The notes under the pieces: generated by a model
Told to the model about the DNA's origin: nothing
Database searches by the model: none
The model's input: the letters and a program-made list of their open reading frames with translations, nothing else
Program-made: the position numbers and the translations under genes
Part shown: positions 24,968-32,744 of the stretch, in pieces
How positions within the stretch are numbered: the first letter of the stretch is position 1
Layout: every line of letters starts with the position of its first letter
Source of the DNA: Pseudomonadota bacterium
Lineage (GTDB): Bacteria; Myxococcota_A; Polyangia; Polyangiales; JAFGIB01
Direction: 5' to 3'
Length of the DNA stretch: 49,555 nt
Assembly: GCA_017881185.1 (NCBI GenBank)
Contig: JADGRE010000014.1
Span: 1-49,555, forward strand

Positions 24968-26086
24968 CTAGTCACGCCCAGTGCGTGTCACATTGGCTTG
25001 CTTGCTCATCGCTGCGATGGCGCGGGCGAGGAGGATGAAGCCTAGGGTCATTGTCAGTAGGCGGCCGGGGGCTCGGGGGCCGTAGCCTGAGGCGAAGATG
25101 AGGAGGGTTGCGGTTGCTGCCTGCACGCGCGCCGCACCACCGGCGACCAGCGCGCTCGCTGCGCCGGCGAGTGCCAGGCACATCGGTAGCGCGTAGAGCG
25201 CGGGCGAGCGCTCGAGCAAGAGGCCGACACGTTGTGCGTGATAGAGCAAGATGGCGAAGTCGTTGTGTAGCGCTTGGTGCGCCACACGCAGCCCGTAGCC
25301 GGCTGCAACGAGGGTGAGCAGGCCGGCGGCGCGCGCGAGCAGCTGCCGCGCCGTGGTGCCGCGCGCTGCCAGCAGCGGAAAGCTCGCGAAGAGCAAGCCC
25401 AGGTACGAGATTTCGCCCAGGCCTTGCAGCGTCTCGTAGGCGCGATGCTTCCACGGATCGAGCTGCACGTCGCTGGTGAGCTCGAGCACGATGGTCGACA
25501 GGCACAAGAGTGGTAGCGCGGTGGCGAAGCCGGCGATCACGCGCAGCAAGAGCGAGTTGGCGAGATCGAGCGCGCGCATGCCCACCATCACGCACAAGAC
25601 GCTGGCGGCGCCGACCGCGAAGTAGACGTGCTCGCGCGTGGTGTGCGTGCGATCGAGCACGGTGGCGACGACCACCTCGCGCAGCAAGATGCTCAAGAAC
25701 ACGACGAACATCACGCGCCTGCGCGCGTTGAGCAGCACGTCACCGCGCCACACGGACCACAGGCTCGCCACCAGAGCGATCAAGCCCGCGAACACTGCGA
25801 GGTTCTCTGCGAACTGGCCGGCTTGCTCGATACGACCGAGCAGCTCGCGCGCCACGCGCGTGCCGAGGCCCGGCACGACCAGCTGGTTGATGGCCATCGA
25901 TGCCAGGGCGGCGAGCGCGGTCATGAACGACAGCGCAGGTAGCTCCTCCAGCGCCGCCCACTGGGACGGGGCGGCTTGCGCGCGCGCATCGGCTTGCCGC
26001 TGCTGTGCTTGCCGCGCGGGCGCTGTGTCGCCGGCGTCGGGTGCGCGTGGCGCGCGCGGCTGGCGCGGCTGTCCACTGTCGTTCAC
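24968..26086 (-). CDS. Hypothetical polytopic membrane protein
   Basis: About 372 residues from GTG 26086 (uncertain; the frame is open to 26305, where it would overlap bioB, and ATG 25924 is a shorter option). A Pro/Ala/Gln-rich hydrophilic N-terminus (about 50 residues) precedes roughly nine hydrophobic segments, for example [38 protein letters not shown] and [19 protein letters not shown] recognise no family. It is divergent from bioB and ends next to the palindromic region. Confidence 0.65.
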
Positions 26087-26297
26087 GGGCGCATCTTGCG
26101 GTGGCTGGTCGGCGGGCGGCGGCAACGGGCTGGCTCCGGGGGCCCGAGCGCGGACAGTGCGTCGGCGCCCCAGGTTCGGCCGGCTGCGCGGCTGCGTCAA
26201 GCGCAACCTCGGGATCGGCGCCGGCTTGTCTCTGCGATGCTCTCGCGTCACGATACGGCGCTCGTTGCGGCGGCCCGCCGAGCATCGGGAGCAGCTC

Positions 26298-27323
26298 ATG
26301 GACACCGGCGTCTACACCCCCAGCGAACGACAGGTCTTCACGCTCGCCCAAGTGCGAGAGATCTACGATTTGCCGCTCACACAGCTGGTGTTTCGAGCGC
26401 AGAGCGTGCACCGCGAGCACCAGCAACCGGACGCCGTTCAGCTGTGCACGCTGCTGTCGATCAAGACCGGCGGCTGTCCTGAAGATTGCGGCTACTGCCC
26501 GCAGAGCGCGCGTCACGAAGGCGGCGTCGAAGCAGAGCCGCTCATGGACGAACGCGCCGTGCTCGGCGCCGCGCGCCGCGCCAAACAAGCCGGTGCCACG
26601 CGCTTCTGCATGGGCGCCGCGTGGCGCAACGCCAAGGGCGGCGAAGCGTTCGAGCGCGTACTGCGGATGGTGCGCGGCGTGCACGACCTGGGCATGGAAG
26701 CGTGCGTCACGCTCGGCATGCTGAACGAGGAGCAAGCCAAGGCGCTGAAAGAAGCCGGCCTCACCTCGTACAACCACAACCTCGACACCTCGCGCGAGTT
26801 CTACGACTCCATCATCACCACGCGCAGCTACGACGAGCGCTTGCAGACCATCGAGCACGTCAGCCGCGCCGGCATCAGCGTGTGTTGTGGCGGCATCATC
26901 GGCATGGGTGAATCGGTCGACGACCGCTGCGCCATGCTGCTGACGCTCGCCAACCTGGAGACGCCGCCGGAGAGCGTGCCGGTGAACGCGCTCGTGCCGG
27001 TCGAAGGCACGCCGCTCGCCGATCGTCCTGCCATCGACCCGTTCGAGCTGGTGCGCATGTGCGCCACCGCGCGCATTCTGATGCCTCGCGCACGCGTGCG
27101 TCTGTCGGCCGGTCGCAGCTCGCTCAGCCGCGAAGCCCAGATGCTGTGCTTCCTCGCCGGCGCCAACTCCATCTTCTTCGGCGAGAAGCTGCTCACCACG
27201 GCGAATCCCGATACGGACGCCGACCTGCAGTTGTTGCGCGACGCCGGTCTGAGGACATTGGCCGCGCAAGACGCGCAAGACGCGCATCACGACGGCCACC
27301 ACCACCTCGCCGTCACGCTCTGA
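26298..27323 (+). CDS. bioB: Biotin synthase
   Basis: A 341-residue radical-SAM enzyme that inserts sulfur into dethiobiotin, the last step of biotin synthesis. Seen: the 4Fe-4S motif CPEDCGYC (Cys about 60, 64, 67), [14 protein letters not shown], the 2Fe-2S ligands in EACVTLGML and [13 protein letters not shown], and the Arg of RVRLSAGR. The TIM-barrel end [13 protein letters not shown]-like segment ([17 protein letters not shown]) is intact. The C-terminal tail [12 protein letters not shown] is unusually His-rich. ATG 26298 follows GGGAG at good spacing. No other bio gene is in the window. It converges on the thioesterase gene with 24 bp between. Confidence 0.96.
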
Positions 27324-27347: not shown

Positions 27348-27800
27348 TCAGGTCGTGCGCACGCCGCGCAGGTTGCGTACGCTCGCATCCGCCAGCGCGA
27401 TCATGCTCGCGGGCATGCTGCAGATCTTGCCTTCGGGCAGGCGAATGCACGCCAGCGTGATCGCTGCTTGCGTGAGCAGCACGTCACGGCGCATCACCAC
27501 GCTGTCGAAGCGCACCTTGGCGCGGTTGGCGACGGCGATCCACGTCTTGATCTCGATCAAGTCGTCGAAGCGTGCGGGCTGGCGGTACTGAATGCTCGCA
27601 TCGACGACGGGCAGGCCGAGCTTGTCGTCGAGCTCGAAGCGCTTGTAGTCGAGGCCGCGCTCGCGCATCAGCTCGACGCGTGCGTGTTCCAGGTAACGGA
27701 AGTACGTGCCGTGATGCACGACGCCGCCTTGATCGGTGTCCACGTAGCCGACGCGTACGCGGTACACGCTTGCGCTCAGCTCAGTTGGGATCTGCGTCAT
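27348..27800 (-). CDS. YbgC/FadM-like acyl-CoA (acyl-ACP) thioesterase
   Basis: A 150-residue single hotdog-fold protein. The 4-hydroxybenzoyl-CoA thioesterase motif is clear: VRVGYVDTDQGGVVHHGTYFRYLEHAR (about 15-41), with the catalytic Asp in DTDQ and the conserved HHGTYFRY. Such enzymes hydrolyse acyl thioesters. It is the last gene of the minus-strand set 13 bp after an acyl carrier protein, so release of a carrier-bound chain is more likely here than general acyl-CoA hydrolysis (inference). ATG 27800 has no strong ribosome site. Confidence 0.88.
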   Translation of the reverse strand: MTQIPTELSASVYRVRVGYVDTDQGGVVHHGTYFRYLEHARVELMRERGLDYKRFELDDKLGLPVVDASIQYRQPARFDDLIEIKTWIAVANRAKVRFDSVVMRRDVLLTQAAITLACIRLPEGKICSMPASMIALADASVRNLRGVRTT

Positions 27801-27813
27801 GCAGAGCGCGCTA

Positions 27814-28071
27814 CTAGAGCTTGGAGCTCACCAGCTCGACGACCGAGTCGAGGTCGCGAACCTTCTCGAGCTCGGCCTCGGGCACCTTGATTTTGTAGCT
27901 GCGCTCGATCTCGGCGATGATCTCGATGGCCATCATCGAGTCGATGCCCAGCTCCTTGAAGGCGACGCTGTCGGGCACTTCGTCGATCTCTGCGATCTCG
28001 ATGACGATGGCGCGCAGCTTCTCTCGGAGCTCGTTTTTGGACATGCTGGACATGCTGGCCATGCCGGTCAT
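27814..28071 (-). CDS. Acyl carrier protein 1
   Basis: An 85-residue acyl carrier protein with the phosphopantetheine Ser in LGIDSMMAIEII (about Ser 45) and the acidic helix 2-3 surface typical of type II carriers. The start ATG 28071 overlaps the upstream carrier stop (TGATG), so translation is coupled. Four in-frame ATGs in the first ten residues (MTGMASMSSM) leave the exact start open. It is one of two neighbouring, non-identical carriers, implying separate duties. Confidence 0.9.
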   Translation of the reverse strand: MTGMASMSSMSKNELREKLRAIVIEIAEIDEVPDSVAFKELGIDSMMAIEIIAEIERSYKIKVPEAELEKVRDLDSVVELVSSKL

Positions 28072-28316
28072 CAGCTCTTGGGCAGCTTGTCAGCCACCAG
28101 GGTGATGAGTTGGCCGACCGTCTGAATGCCCACGAGCTGGTCGTCGGGGATGCGCACGTTGAGGTCGCGCTCCAGGCTGCCGATGACTTCCAGCAGCTCG
28201 AGCGAGTCGATGCCGAGCTCTGCGATCACCCGGGTCTCTTCGATGTTTTTCAGGTCTTTTTCGGCAATTTCCGAAGCGGTGGTTCGGAAGATCTGAAGCA
28301 GCTCGGGCCGGGTCAT
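28071..28316 (-). CDS. Acyl carrier protein 2
   Basis: A carrier protein of 81 residues from ATG 28316, or 86 from ATG 28331. ATG 28316 is preferred because GGAG lies 9 nt upstream, within the alternative start. Phosphopantetheine site: LGIDSLELLEVIG (Ser about 40). It differs markedly from carrier 1 in sequence. The stop overlaps the ATG of carrier 1 by 1 nt. A 91-bp gap separates it from the fatty acyl-AMP ligase, with a promoter-like TGGACG-N17-TATTAA at 28376-28348. Confidence 0.9.
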   Translation of the reverse strand: MTRPELLQIFRTTASEIAEKDLKNIEETRVIAELGIDSLELLEVIGSLERDLNVRIPDDQLVGIQTVGQLITLVADKLPKS

Positions 28317-28347
28317 AGGGCGGTTCTCCATGCAGTTGACGGTTGCC

Positions 28348-28376
28348 TTAATACGCGCATTCGGCCGCTACGTCCA
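28348..28376 (-). promoter_or_regulatory. Promoter-like TGGACG-N17-TATTAA before the carrier genes
   Basis: On the minus strand TGGACG (28376-28371) and TATTAA (28353-28348) are 17 bp apart, in the gap between the FAAL and carrier genes. It could give the two carriers and thioesterase their own transcript. Confidence 0.4.
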
Positions 28377-28422
28377 TGCGGGTCGGCGTGTGCCGGCCGC
28401 TGACGGCGGTCGCGGGTCAAGC

Positions 28423-30126
28423 TCAGACGGGGTGTTCCTCGAGCTCGCCGGCCTCGAACATGGCCTTGGTGCGGCGGCGTTGGACCTTGCCGCTCGAGGT
28501 CTTGGGCAGCGAGCCGACCTTCACGACGGCCACGTGCCCGACGGTCAGGCCGACAGTCTCCATGACCTTGGTGGCGATGGCTGTGCGCAGGTTGGCGGCG
28601 TCGGTGGAGTTGCCCTCGGCCGAGATGACCAAGGACTCCTCGCCGTTGCGCATCACGCTGAAGGCGACCACGTTGTCGCGGCGCACGCCTTCGACTTCCG
28701 CCACGGCCCACTCGATGTCTTGTGGGTAGAAGTTCGCGCCGCGGATGATGATCAGGTCTTTGAGCCGCCCGCAGACGTACAGGTTCTCGCCGCTCATGTA
28801 GCCGAGGTCGCCGGTGTGCAGCCAGCCATCGGTATAGGCCGCTGCGCTGGCTTCGGGGTTGCCGTAGTAGCCGGCCGTGATGCTCGGGCCGCGCGACCAG
28901 ATCTCGCCGACCTGGCGATCGCCCAGGCTCTGGCCTTGCTCGCTCACGATCTTCAGCTCGTGGCCCGGGAACGGATGTCCGCACGACACCAGCTCCAAAG
29001 TGCCTTCGCTACCGCTCGCAGGCTTGGCTTCACCCGCCTTCATGCGCTCGGCGTCTACAACGTCGGTGAGCAGGGGCGCGTCGCGGTCGTGGAAGGTGAT
29101 GGCCAGTGTGGACTCGGCCATACCGTACGCTGGCATCAGCGCGGGCGCGCGGAAACCAACGCTCGCGAAGCGCGCCGCGAACTCGCGCATGACGCGCGGG
29201 TTGATCGGCTCGGCGCCGCAGCCGGCCACGCGCAGCGTGCTGAGATCGAGGCCTTCGAGGTCTTTGTCGCGCGCGCGCTTGGTGGCGAGGCCATACGCGA
29301 AGTTCGGCGCGAAGGTGATGGTGCCGCCGACCTTGGCGATGGTCTCGAGCCACAGGTTGGGCCGGCGTCCGAACGCTTCGGTCGGCATCAGCACGGTGGT
29401 GATGTTGCAGACGATGGTGCCCAGCACGAAGCCGATCAGACCCATGTCGTGATAGAGCGGCAGCCACGTGACGGCGATGTCTTCGTCGCGTCGATCGATG
29501 CCGCGTGGGCCCAAGAACGCGCGCGCGTTCGCGACCAAGTTGCGGTGAGTCACCATCACACCCTTGGGCAGCGAGGTGCTACCCGAGGTGAACTGCAAGA
29601 AGCACAGGTCGCTGGCGTCGACACGCGGTGGCGTCCACTGCGACTGCGGCGGAGCCTGGTTCAATAGATCTTCCAACACCACGATGCGGCACAAGCCCGG
29701 GTGGTGGGCCAGCACCTCGTCGATGACGGGCTTGCTGGCTTCCATGGTGAGCAGCACCTTGGCGCCCGCGGCCTTCACGATGTGGCTGACGGTCTCGACG
29801 TAGGCGTTCTTGGCCTTGAAGCTGGCGCGCGGATAAATGGGCACCGGCACGACGCCCGCGACCGCAGCACCCAGGAAGCTCAGCACGAACTCTGCGGGGT
29901 CGCCGATGACCAGCGCGATGCGATCGCCCTTCTGCAGGTCGAGGCTCGCCAGCCGCGCTGCGCGGGCGTGGGCCTCGCGCTCGAGCGCCTCGAATGGGTA
30001 GTAACGCTCGCTGCCGTCCAGGGCGCGGAAGTGAAAGCCGCGCGTGCCCGCAGCCGCGCTGGCGGCACAGGAGCGTGCCAGCTGCGACAAGCAAGAGACG
30101 AGCGTATCGGCGTCGGAAGGCGTCAT
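28423..30126 (-). CDS. Fatty acyl-AMP ligase (FAAL family)
   Basis: A 567-residue adenylate-forming enzyme that would activate a free fatty acid as acyl-AMP and pass it to a carrier protein rather than CoA. Seen: phosphate loop LQFTSGSTSLPKGVMVTH (about 180), the FAAL/FadD32 hallmark WLPLYHDMGLIGFVLG (about 220), MPAYGMAESTL, the hinge GRLKDLIIIRGANFYPQDIE and the C-terminal Lys in KTSSGKVQRRR. The hallmark set is that of mycobacterial-type FAALs. Neighbouring carrier and ketosynthase genes support this reading over a CoA ligase. ATG 30126 is 9 nt after a good -10 box, with no ribosome site. Confidence 0.92.
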   Translation of the reverse strand: MTPSDADTLVSCLSQLARSCAASAAAGTRGFHFRALDGSERYYPFEALEREAHARAARLASLDLQKGDRIALVIGDPAEFVLSFLGAAVAGVVPVPIYPRASFKAKNAYVETVSHIVKAAGAKVLLTMEASKPVIDEVLAHHPGLCRIVVLEDLLNQAPPQSQWTPPRVDASDLCFLQFTSGSTSLPKGVMVTHRNLVANARAFLGPRGIDRRDEDIAVTWLPLYHDMGLIGFVLGTIVCNITTVLMPTEAFGRRPNLWLETIAKVGGTITFAPNFAYGLATKRARDKDLEGLDLSTLRVAGCGAEPINPRVMREFAARFASVGFRAPALMPAYGMAESTLAITFHDRDAPLLTDVVDAERMKAGEAKPASGSEGTLELVSCGHPFPGHELKIVSEQGQSLGDRQVGEIWSRGPSITAGYYGNPEASAAAYTDGWLHTGDLGYMSGENLYVCGRLKDLIIIRGANFYPQDIEWAVAEVEGVRRDNVVAFSVMRNGEESLVISAEGNSTDAANLRTAIATKVMETVGLTVGHVAVVKVGSLPKTSSGKVQRRRTKAMFEAGELEEHPV

Positions 30127-30135
30127 GGCGCGGGC

Positions 30136-30165
30136 TATCTACGGGCGGCGTCGTAGGTCTGTCAA
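30136..30165 (-). promoter_or_regulatory. Sigma-70 promoter TTGACA-N18-TAGATA, leaderless FAAL start
   Basis: On the minus strand TTGACA (30165-30160) and TAGATA (30141-30136) are 18 bp apart. The -10 ends 9 nt before ATG 30126, so the 5' leader would be only a few bases. Confidence 0.6.
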
Positions 30166-30172
30166 GCCGGCT

Positions 30173-30185
30173 TTTCCCCGGGAAA
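30173..30185. promoter_or_regulatory. Palindrome TTTCCC-C-GGGAAA between FAAL and ketosynthase genes
   Basis: A 6-bp inverted repeat with one central base, next to the FAAL -35 box and about 38 bp from the ketosynthase -35, is well placed for a regulator of both divergent units. A second self-complementary octamer GGCCGGCC follows near 30197. Confidence 0.4.
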
Positions 30186-30222
30186 TTAGGCCAGTCGGCC
30201 GGCCAGTAACATGGTCGGAAGC

Positions 30223-30251
30223 TTGCGGCAGTGGATCGCGCCGGCTATAGC
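30223..30251 (+). promoter_or_regulatory. Promoter-like TTGCGG-N17-TATAGC, leaderless ketosynthase start
   Basis: TTGCGG (30223-30228) and TATAGC (30246-30251) are 17 bp apart; the -10 ends 10 nt before ATG 30262, again giving a very short leader. Confidence 0.5.
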
Positions 30252-30261
30252 TGCACGCAGC

Positions 30262-31545
30262 ATGACGCGTGTCTTTGTAACGGGCTTGGGTGTGGTCAGC
30301 TCGCTTGGTCTGGGTCGCGACGCCTATTGGCGTGCGGTCGTGGAGGGCCAGAGCGGGTTTTCCACCATCCAAGGTTTCGACACCGGCAATCTCGATCGCT
30401 CGGTCGCGGGCGAAGTGCGCGGCTTCAACGCGCGCGATTTCCTCACGGCTGCCGAAGCACGTCGCACCGGTCGTTGCTCCGCGTTCGCGCTCGCTGCGGC
30501 ACGCATGGCGGTCGAAGACGCAGGCCTCTCGCGCAGCGACCTCGAGGGCGAACGCACCTCGGTGATTCTCGGCACGACCATGGGCGAAGCCGACGTCATC
30601 GGTGAGCTCGAGCACACCTGGATGCGTCGCGGCCTCAGCGCCGTGCTGCCCAACAAACTTCCGTTGTATGGCTCCACGCTCTTGCCCATTCACCTGGCGC
30701 GCGCGTTTGGGGCCCGCGGCATGGTGCAAACACTGCCGGCAGCCTGCGCAGCTGGAAACTACTCGATCGCCTTCGCCGCCGACCTGATTCGTTCCGGTCG
30801 CGCCGATGTCGTGATCGCTGGTGCGAGCGAGCTCTTGCAGAAGGTGCAGTTCGCCGGCTTCGTGCGTCTGGGTGCCGTGGCGCCCGACCGTTGCCAGCCC
30901 TTCGACAAGAACCGCAAGGGTCTGATCGTTGGTGAAGGCGCAGGCATCTTGGTGCTCGAGTCCGAAGCGCATGCCGTGCGGCGTGGTGCGACCGCGCTGG
31001 CCGAGGTCGGCGGCGCAGGTCTCGCGTGCGACGCGCATCACATCACGCGTCCGCATCCCGAGGGCCTCGGCAGCTTGAACGCGATGCGTGAAGCCATCAC
31101 GCGCAGCGGCGTCACGGCTGACGACGTCGACTTCGTCAATGCCCACGGCACCGGTACGCACGCCAACGACAAGGTCGAGGCGCTGGTCATCCGCGAAGTG
31201 TTCGGCTCACGGCCCGTGCCGGTGAGCAGCATGAAGGGCATGCTCGGTCACTGCATGGGCGCTGCAAGCGCGCTCGAAGCCGTGGCCTGCGTGCTCACGG
31301 TGCAGACGGGCATCTACCCGCCGACCATGAGCTACGAGACGCCCGATCCGGAGTGCGACTTGAACCTCGTCGCCAACCGCTCGCGCACCGGCAAGGCCGA
31401 CATCGTGCTCAACAACTCACTCGCGTTCGGCGGCTACGATGCCGTGGTCGCGTTCGCCAAGCCCGGCCGTCTGCCGGACCCGAGCAAGCTGGCCGCGCAG
31501 GTCGCCGCGAGCACTCCGCCAAGCTCTGCCAGCTTCCTCCAGTGA
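30262..31545 (+). CDS. Beta-ketoacyl-ACP synthase (KAS II/FabF-like)
   Basis: A 427-residue thiolase-fold condensing enzyme with a complete Cys-His-His set: PAACAAGNYSIAF (Cys about 162), VNAHGTGTHANDKVE (His about 296) and SMKGMLGHCMGAASALEA with Lys and second His (about 328-333). It would condense an acyl thioester with malonyl-ACP. Family members of this type are FabF or KS-alpha of type II polyketide systems. Its last four bases overlap the next gene (GTGA), a KS-alpha/KS-beta-like layout. A 30-residue C-terminal tail is Pro/Ser-rich and atypical. Confidence 0.92.
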   Translation: MTRVFVTGLGVVSSLGLGRDAYWRAVVEGQSGFSTIQGFDTGNLDRSVAGEVRGFNARDFLTAAEARRTGRCSAFALAAARMAVEDAGLSRSDLEGERTSVILGTTMGEADVIGELEHTWMRRGLSAVLPNKLPLYGSTLLPIHLARAFGARGMVQTLPAACAAGNYSIAFAADLIRSGRADVVIAGASELLQKVQFAGFVRLGAVAPDRCQPFDKNRKGLIVGEGAGILVLESEAHAVRRGATALAEVGGAGLACDAHHITRPHPEGLGSLNAMREAITRSGVTADDVDFVNAHGTGTHANDKVEALVIREVFGSRPVPVSSMKGMLGHCMGAASALEAVACVLTVQTGIYPPTMSYETPDPECDLNLVANRSRTGKADIVLNNSLAFGGYDAVVAFAKPGRLPDPSKLAAQVAASTPPSSASFLQ

Positions 31546-32744
31546 AACCCTGCGCCATCACGGGGCTCGGTTTGGTGAGCCCGCTCGGCGTCGGCTACGA
31601 CGCGCTGGTCGCTGCGCTACGCGCGCAGGACGCTGCGCCCACCGATATCTTCCACAACCACCCGACGCTGCTCGACCCCGAGACCCTTGGCGTCACGCCG
31701 CTCGCCGCCGAGTGCCACGACTTCGATCCCAAGCTCTACTTGGGTGACAAAGGTCTGCGCAATCTCGACCGTCTCACCAAGATGCTGGTGGTGTCGGCGA
31801 AATTCGCGCTCGAGCACGCGGGCTTGAAGCGCGACGGCGTGCACACGCTGTCGCCCGAGCGCGTGGGCTTGTGCTCGGCCACGGCGTACGGCTCGCTCGA
31901 GGCCATCACCGAAGCGGCGCACGTGACGGAGCTGGAAGACCCGCGCTTCCTCAATCCCAATCGCTTCCCCAACACCGTCATCAACGCGTCTGCGGGCTAC
32001 GTGAGCATCTGGGAAGACTTGCGTGCGCCGAACGTGACCGTCGTGGACGGCAACTGCGGCGCGCTCGATGCCGTGCTCAGCAGCGAGACGCATCTCTTGT
32101 ATGGCCGCGCCGACGCGTTCGTGGTGGGTGGCGGCGAAGCGCTGAGCATTCCGCTCTACCTCGCGTTCCACAAGCTCGGCGTGCTGGCCGATGGCGAGCG
32201 CGTGTTCGCACCCGGCCGACGCGAGAGCCAAGGCATGCGTCTGGGCGAGGGCGCCGCGTACCTGTGTCTGGAGACTCCCGAGGGTGCGAAGAAGCGCGGC
32301 GCGCAGGTGCGCGCGTACGTGGTCGGCTACGGCAACGCGTTCGAGCCGCCCGAGTCCGAGGCGGTGCTCGTGCACGTCTCTGCAACGGCAGTCCAGCGCG
32401 CGATCCGCATGGCGCTGTCGGATGCGGGCTTGCAGCCGCGCGACATCGACGTGGTGGCGAGCGCCGTCAGCGGCATCGCTCACTTCGATGCGGCGGAGTT
32501 GGCTGGTATCGAGACCGCGCTCGGCCCCGAGGTCGCGGTGGTAGCGCCCAAGGCCGTGTTCGGCGAGACTTTTGGTGCTTCGGGTGCGTTCGCGATGGCG
32601 TCCGCCGTCGCGTGGTTCGAAGGCCTCCGCGTGGGGCCGCTCGTGCAAGGCAAGCGCCCCGAGGTCCTCAAGCACGTGCTCGCGCTCGCCGTCGGTTACT
32701 ACGGCAACGCCACCGCAGTCATTTTGCGGCGCGCCGGCGCTTGA
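31542..32744 (+). CDS. Ketosynthase-like protein lacking both catalytic His (KS-beta/CLF-like)
   Basis: A 400-residue paralogue of the preceding ketosynthase. The nucleophile Cys is kept (VVDGNCGALDAV, about 171) and the Lys too (VVAPKAVFG), but the HGTGT His is replaced (ASAVSGIAHFD, Ala at that place, about 305) and the GH motif reads GETFGASGA (Glu, about 341). It can hardly decarboxylate malonyl-ACP. It resembles chain-length factors in operon position and loss of catalysis, yet true CLFs replace the Cys and keep other residues. A heterodimer with the upstream enzyme is likely (inference). GTG 31542 overlaps the upstream stop by 4 nt; its 3' end overlaps the converging TPR gene by 26 nt. 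Confidence 0.88.
   Translation: MKPCAITGLGLVSPLGVGYDALVAALRAQDAAPTDIFHNHPTLLDPETLGVTPLAAECHDFDPKLYLGDKGLRNLDRLTKMLVVSAKFALEHAGLKRDGVHTLSPERVGLCSATAYGSLEAITEAAHVTELEDPRFLNPNRFPNTVINASAGYVSIWEDLRAPNVTVVDGNCGALDAVLSSETHLLYGRADAFVVGGGEALSIPLYLAFHKLGVLADGERVFAPGRRESQGMRLGEGAAYLCLETPEGAKKRGAQVRAYVVGYGNAFEPPESEAVLVHVSATAVQRAIRMALSDAGLQPRDIDVVASAVSGIAHFDAAELAGIETALGPEVAVVAPKAVFGETFGASGAFAMASAVAWFEGLRVGPLVQGKRPEVLKHVLALAVGYYGNATAVILRRAGA

Follow-up and report, generated by a model that had tools for sequence, protein, structure and literature searches.

The window, the whole stretch of 49,555 nucleotides that was analyzed (contig JADGRE010000014.1 of assembly GCA_017881185.1), comes from a bacterium of the order Polyangiales, the members of which live in soil and water. 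The locus under study is located on contig C324 of this 5.99-Mb, 94% complete assembly (G000), which has relatives among metagenome-assembled genomes (MAGs) of the Sandaracinaceae. Two divergent units encode a thioesterase (TE), two acyl carrier proteins (ACP1 and ACP2), and a fatty acyl-AMP ligase (FAAL) on one strand and a ketosynthase (KS) with its His-less partner (CLF) on the other (Table 1). This gene order, the 135-bp gap, and the GTGA overlap of the KS and CLF genes had been claimed by a first-pass annotation of this DNA and agreed with the ORF coordinates; the tight coupling of the genes was visible in the overlaps and gap sizes, and each gene family named was backed by Pfam and NCBIfam. 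The interesting part is located outside the coordinates of these six genes, namely, a clade of alpha-oxoamine synthases (AOSs) that appears to replace serine palmitoyltransferase (SPT) and is accompanied by the KS-CLF gene set.

Table 1. Features of the KS-CLF locus in the window
Feature	Position	Strand	Assignment
TE, hotdog (YbgC/FadM-type) acyl thioesterase	27348-27800	-	Pfam 4HBT_2/4HBT; NCBIfam TIGR00051 above cut-off
ACP1, acyl carrier protein, attachment Ser in GIDSMM	27814-28071	-	Pfam PP-binding
ACP2, second acyl carrier protein, attachment Ser in GIDSLE	28071-28331	-	Pfam PP-binding
FAAL, fatty acyl-AMP ligase related to AasR	28423-30126	-	Pfam AMP-binding and DIP2-like C-terminal domain
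Divergent intergenic control region FAAL/KS, 135 bp	30127-30261
KS, ketosynthase, start ATG 30262	30262-31545	+	Pfam; Cys162-His295-His330 intact, Lys325, Phe389
CLF, His-less ketosynthase partner, start GTG 31542	31542-32744	+	Pfam; Cys172 kept, Glu342 replaces second His

A scan of GTDB genomes yielded 42 loci with a relative of CLF, and the named ones were nearly all MAGs of Myxococcota. Several of these loci were truncated, and the gene counts there are minima. The KS gene preceded the CLF gene at about 39 loci, and an ACP gene was nearby at 33. A FAAL gene was found at 22 and a TE gene at 12 of the 42 loci, indicating that neither one belongs to the core; the TE gene is an accessory gene. 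ACP2 was not detected at several related loci, so that a second carrier, which the initial interpretation used for chain extension, is not present everywhere. Since the arrangement recurs in Polyangiales, with a protein identity of about 45 to 87% among syntenic loci and with KS and CLF trees of the same topology for most members, it is not due to chance. The comparison of genome neighborhoods, which had been suggested as a check, thus revealed synteny in this order. In the window, bioB (biotin synthase, 25638-27323, plus strand) adjoins the TE gene, which may be coincidence; among the 42 loci, this adjacency was confined to the genus of the window.

The AOS family was found by clustering all ORFs around the 42 loci. 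A gene for a protein with alpha-oxoamine synthase motifs was present at 32 loci and was, with one exception, the plus-strand gene downstream of CLF. The order KS-CLF-AOS was kept across several families. The window has no AOS gene downstream of CLF; the orthologue in the same genome is located at a contig end (C106:10638-11873), and its product is 74% identical to the AOS of another locus. The AOS keeps the catalytic His, Asp, Lys, and Arg residues of AOS enzymes. It reached 324.8 bits on the bioF model (cut-off, 426.45) and also missed the KBL cut-offs. In the tree, the AOS clade had a support of 100/100 and joined the SPTs at 96/93, apart from BioF and the KBL-type enzymes, with several long branches making the exact join to the SPTs less sure. 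On this phylogenetic basis, the AOS is a new, previously unnamed clade that is sister to SPT. In two closed genomes, G032 and G017 (loci L160 and L161), the KS and CLF genes are about 4 to 5 kb apart on opposite strands, with AOS still downstream of CLF, and the FAAL gene of G017 is located away from the KS-CLF locus.

The distribution of AOS was compared with that of CLF and classic SPT in 57 Polyangiales genomes, with an identity of at least 63% used to call AOS and an SPT-type protein with 440 to 461 bits on NF047600 to call classic SPT. AOS was present in 47 genomes, classic SPT in 7, and both together in none (Fisher test, p of about 5e-7, a value that overstates independence because the genomes are kin). 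CLF was found in 43 genomes, 42 of which also contained AOS, and the exception was a genome that is 82% complete. When the phylum was sampled evenly with 237 genomes, AOS was present in all 23 CLF-positive ones, and every genome with a member of the AOS clade belonged to the Polyangiales. Three of the genomes with classic SPT (G039, G042, and G050) contained no CLF or KS orthologue, and no close FAAL was found in G039 and G042. A third AOS of many genomes, AOSx, was considered as a hidden SPT and rejected because it is present in SPT-type and AOS-type genomes alike and carries the motifs FICGT and GKALGGASGGY, which we take to be those of KBL.

Bacterial sphingolipid synthesis is thought to begin with SPT. 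In G039, G042, and G050, the classic SPT gene sits with one encoding a GNAT-like protein; in G039, a gene for a short-chain dehydrogenase/reductase (SDR) comes next. Along its length, the GNAT-like protein, bCerS, shares 39% identity with YghO of E. coli B (E=8e-100). The yghO gene is listed as an orthologue of CC_1154, an N-acyltransferase needed for dihydroceramide (PMC9386255). A bCerS homologue was present in 55 of the 57 Polyangiales genomes but is not universal, occurring in 95 of the 237 genomes across the phylum, where it often adjoins an AOS gene as judged from the coordinates. In G003, bCerS is the divergent neighbor of the new AOS, and in eight AOS-type genomes without classic SPT it adjoins or is at most 2 kb from a gene for a CerR-like SDR. 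The SDR family was considered too broad for a CerR homologue alone to serve as a marker. The genome of the window encodes two bCerS homologues (C8:21853-22977 and C24:25887-27011), 53% and 51% identical to the G039 protein, which could act on different amines. Most of the sampled Polyangiales genomes consequently lack SPT and keep a bCerS homologue, having instead the unnamed AOS clade, nearly always together with KS-CLF. AOS proteins that are 44 to 47% identical to the new clade and form its sister group are encoded in G048 and G263 (L208, 4218-5408, and L209, 7630-8829), and in G048 a bCerS homologue is located about 11 kb from this gene.

Without exception, the 45 aligned KS sequences retained the Cys, the two His residues, the Lys, and the Phe gate. 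None of the 49 CLF relatives had either His, and Glu replaced the second His in 48 of them. The description of the second ketosynthase as His-less consequently held for both His residues, albeit the active-site Cys is usually kept nonetheless (41 of 49). These residues indicate that the KS is a condensing enzyme and that CLF is an inactive or transfer-only partner. A triad-bearing KS with a coupled partner devoid of the catalytic residues is a feature of type II polyketide systems; a dedicated ketoreductase, cyclase, or aromatase, another such feature, was not conserved around the 42 related loci. An aryl polyene-like set was considered and dismissed since no ketoreductase or dehydratase recurs there. 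The KS scored 397.7 bits on the fabF equivalog model, below the cut-off of 493.75, and belonged to a clade (support, 100/100) that included neither E. coli FabF nor the FabF-type protein of the same genome. Grouping with housekeeping FabF, which had been named as an outcome that would speak against a separate system, was therefore not observed. The best solved match of KS (395 bits) and CLF (154 bits) was the KS-CLF pair of PDB entries 9s5h/9s5i; the match of CLF, chain C of 9s5h, partners a KS. That 9s5h is an anammox protein was suspected from the ACP matches and could not be confirmed. A second KS-CLF pair of this genome (contig C347, locus L010, 4283-10024) is accompanied by an ACP-like ORF and by genes for an amino acid adenylation enzyme and a PigA-type prolyl-peptidyl carrier protein dehydrogenase (NF053553, 579 bits; cut-off, 500). 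This set resembles a type II polyketide cluster with a pyrrole-2-carboxyl primer.

The FAAL had its best NCBIfam score on the "fatty acyl-AMP ligase" model NF006624 (523 bits, below the cut-off of 600) and was 35% identical to E. coli AasR over 563 amino acids (E=1.6e-108). Its best solved match was 3pbk, the aligned sequence of which is essentially E. coli AasR. AasR acylates AcpR, and acyl-AcpR is the preferred substrate of the SPTs in that group (PMC9386255). The similarity of the ACP to AcpR was weak (28% over 32 amino acids). In genus g8, which has no KS or CLF, an ACP gene adjoins AOS in all three neighborhoods read, and because the encoded protein is ACP1-like, AOS likely receives its acyl chain from ACP1. 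A bioB gene lies about 5 kb from AOS in g8 (L157, 14303-15349), which may be coincidence. At three loci, the ACP2 and ACP1 genes are separated by a gene for an acyl-ACP desaturase (FA_desaturase_2) (L064, 608-1432, minus strand; L072, 5196-6107, minus strand; L165, 11294-12097, plus strand), which suggests that long acyl chains are carried by those ACPs.

Judging from the mutual exclusion of AOS and SPT, the retention of bCerS, and a FAAL that is closest to AasR among solved structures, ceramide synthesis appears to be maintained in the AOS-type Polyangiales, with the new AOS taking over from SPT. The KS-CLF set is, with a fair degree of probability, a dedicated acyl-ACP supply module for this SPT-replacing AOS, which would start sphingolipid-type lipids. 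A conserved gene set that travels with an SPT relative would thus probably feed the acyl chain by a route not described before. From the gene families, the synteny, the co-occurrence of CLF and AOS, the absence of SPT, and the presence of bCerS, all of which were observed, the catalytic steps, substrate, and product may be inferred as follows. FAAL would activate a free fatty acid and load it onto ACP1, just as AcpR is charged by AasR in Caulobacter and E. coli B, and KS-CLF would elongate the ACP-bound chain with malonyl units. AOS would condense the acyl- or beta-ketoacyl-ACP with an amino acid under loss of CO2, and a bCerS-type enzyme would N-acylate the amino product to a ceramide-like membrane lipid, while TE probably recycles stalled chains. 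The chain-terminating step is likely a pyridoxal phosphate (PLP)-dependent condensation with an amino acid, which would make the product class sphingolipid-type and not a free beta-keto acid.

Two variants of the elongation step may be envisaged. KS-CLF may add one unreduced unit, and AOS would then make a 3,5-dioxo base; alternatively, KS-CLF may set the chain length while housekeeping reductases complete each cycle. The altered substrate loop of AOS leans toward the former variant and the situation in g8, where AOS and an ACP alone are kept, toward the latter since it argues that AOS can work without KS-CLF. Direct condensation of the KS-CLF beta-ketoacyl-ACP with an amino acid by AOS, in which polyketide extension and PLP chemistry together build the sphingolipid-type backbone, is a tentative proposal and possible at best. 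The backbone would then carry an additional oxygen function at C5 or a cyclized pyrrolinone head, and a third way of making sphingoid-like membrane lipids would exist.

Several observations weigh against a function of the KS-CLF set as supplier of an SPT substitute, in addition to the kinship of the genomes mentioned above. The AOS gene is not linked to the window locus in this genome. The substrate loop of AOS reads SSSR-xQATT where SPT has TGSRxxNGS/T, and the scores on the SPT models remained far from the cut-offs: 312.9 bits on NF047600 (cut-off, 640), 286.2 on NF047599 (500), and 229.6 on NF047603 (670). The CerR candidate of the genome is weak, with an identity of 34%, while clear orthologues exist beside bCerS in other AOS-type genomes. 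The five genomes of genus g8 keep AOS without a KS or CLF orthologue, showing that KS-CLF is not strictly needed by AOS, and no close FAAL was found in the two g8 genomes tested.

The unusual loop, together with the full condensing triad of the KS, is also compatible with a dissociated pathway similar to that of RedL or PigJ/PigH. In prodiginine biosynthesis, these proteins work in the order ligase, ACP, KS, ACP, and AOS. With the same order of activities, FAAL would load a fatty acid, KS-CLF would add one malonyl unit, and AOS would use glycine, alanine, or serine to form an aminodiketone and subsequently an alkyl-pyrrolinone, a small metabolite or signal instead of a ceramide. The genome, moreover, has the KS-CLF cluster with the PigA-type dehydrogenase. 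This explanation is nevertheless unlikely: no genome has both AOS and classic SPT while bCerS is retained, the locus is nearly universal in the AOS-type families and conserved throughout the order, unlike most natural-product clusters, no pyrrole-tailoring genes recur around the related loci, and the KS did not pass the PigJ model (78.5 bits; cut-off, 900). Somewhat less likely still is a neighborhood of KS-CLF and AOS for the purpose of regulation only, with KS-CLF making a second lipid and AOS using acyl-ACP from ordinary fatty acid synthesis. The AOS and ACP of g8 without KS-CLF, and the dispersal of the parts in this species and in the closed genomes G017 and G032, would fit; the near-perfect nesting of CLF within the AOS-positive genomes and the KS-CLF-AOS order kept across several families do not.

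The first-pass annotation had proposed a self-contained minimal type II fatty acid or polyketide path with release of a free beta-keto or reduced acid by TE, in agreement with the adjacent and coupled genes for TE, FAAL, the ACPs, KS, and CLF. With TE and FAAL genes at 12 and 22 of the 42 related loci versus AOS genes at 32, and an AOS elsewhere in this genome, that proposal was abandoned as quite improbable. Supply of pimeloyl-ACP for biotin might be assumed from the neighboring bioB, the product of which scored 395.9 bits on its model (cut-off, 225), from the bioB gene near AOS in g8, and from the fact that BioF itself is an AOS. A link to biotin as the leading explanation was rejected and is hardly credible, because the adjacency is limited to one genus, the AOS remained below the bioF cut-off, the genome has a true bioF (432.2 bits; cut-off, 426.45) together with bioD at another place, and FAAL resembles long-chain ligases.

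If AOS replaces SPT with KS-CLF as its supplier, the enzyme of the first committed step toward these lipids would be identified for a large order, SPT-free synthesis would be explained, and backbones with an unusual chain chemistry would be suggested. Annotation of AOS may also be improved since it now falls under the BioF, KBL, and SPT models without reaching a cut-off. Literature searches on KS-CLF or RedL combined with an oxoamine synthase gave no match, and those on sphingolipids of Sandaracinus or Polyangiales had only unrelated papers among the matches listed. No description of this gene set was found in the literature searched, in line with the initial statement that no named system with exactly this set was known.

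The closest known system is AasR-AcpR-SPT, which initiates sphingolipid synthesis in Rhodobacteria (Caulobacter CC_1162-1165; E. coli B ECD_02850-02854). An AasR-related FAAL, a dedicated ACP gene adjacent to it, an SPT-like AOS as partner, and genome-encoded bCerS homologues are common to both, and a CerR homologue is often present in AOS-type genomes. In contrast, the locus of the window adds KS-CLF, usually a second ACP, and sometimes TE, and its AOS belongs to another clade, is not recognized as SPT by the models, and is unlinked in this genome. The Polyangiales with a classic SPT of the Bacteroidetes/deltaproteobacterial type (G039, G042, and G050) belong to the same order and have the same bCerS family, and the AOS clade is sister to their SPTs; they differ in being without KS and CLF, and their SPT never shares a genome with AOS. 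The KS has the fold and triad of housekeeping FabF and is distinguished from it by its clade and its score below the cut-off. The 9s5h/9s5i KS-CLF-ACP complex likewise has a CLF with GE for GH and an ACP among the best matches of ACP1, but this CLF is without the Cys kept in that of the window (Cys172). RedL and PigJ/PigH, finally, are alike in their order of activities, whereas the window encodes separate proteins, a CLF, and no acyltransferase.

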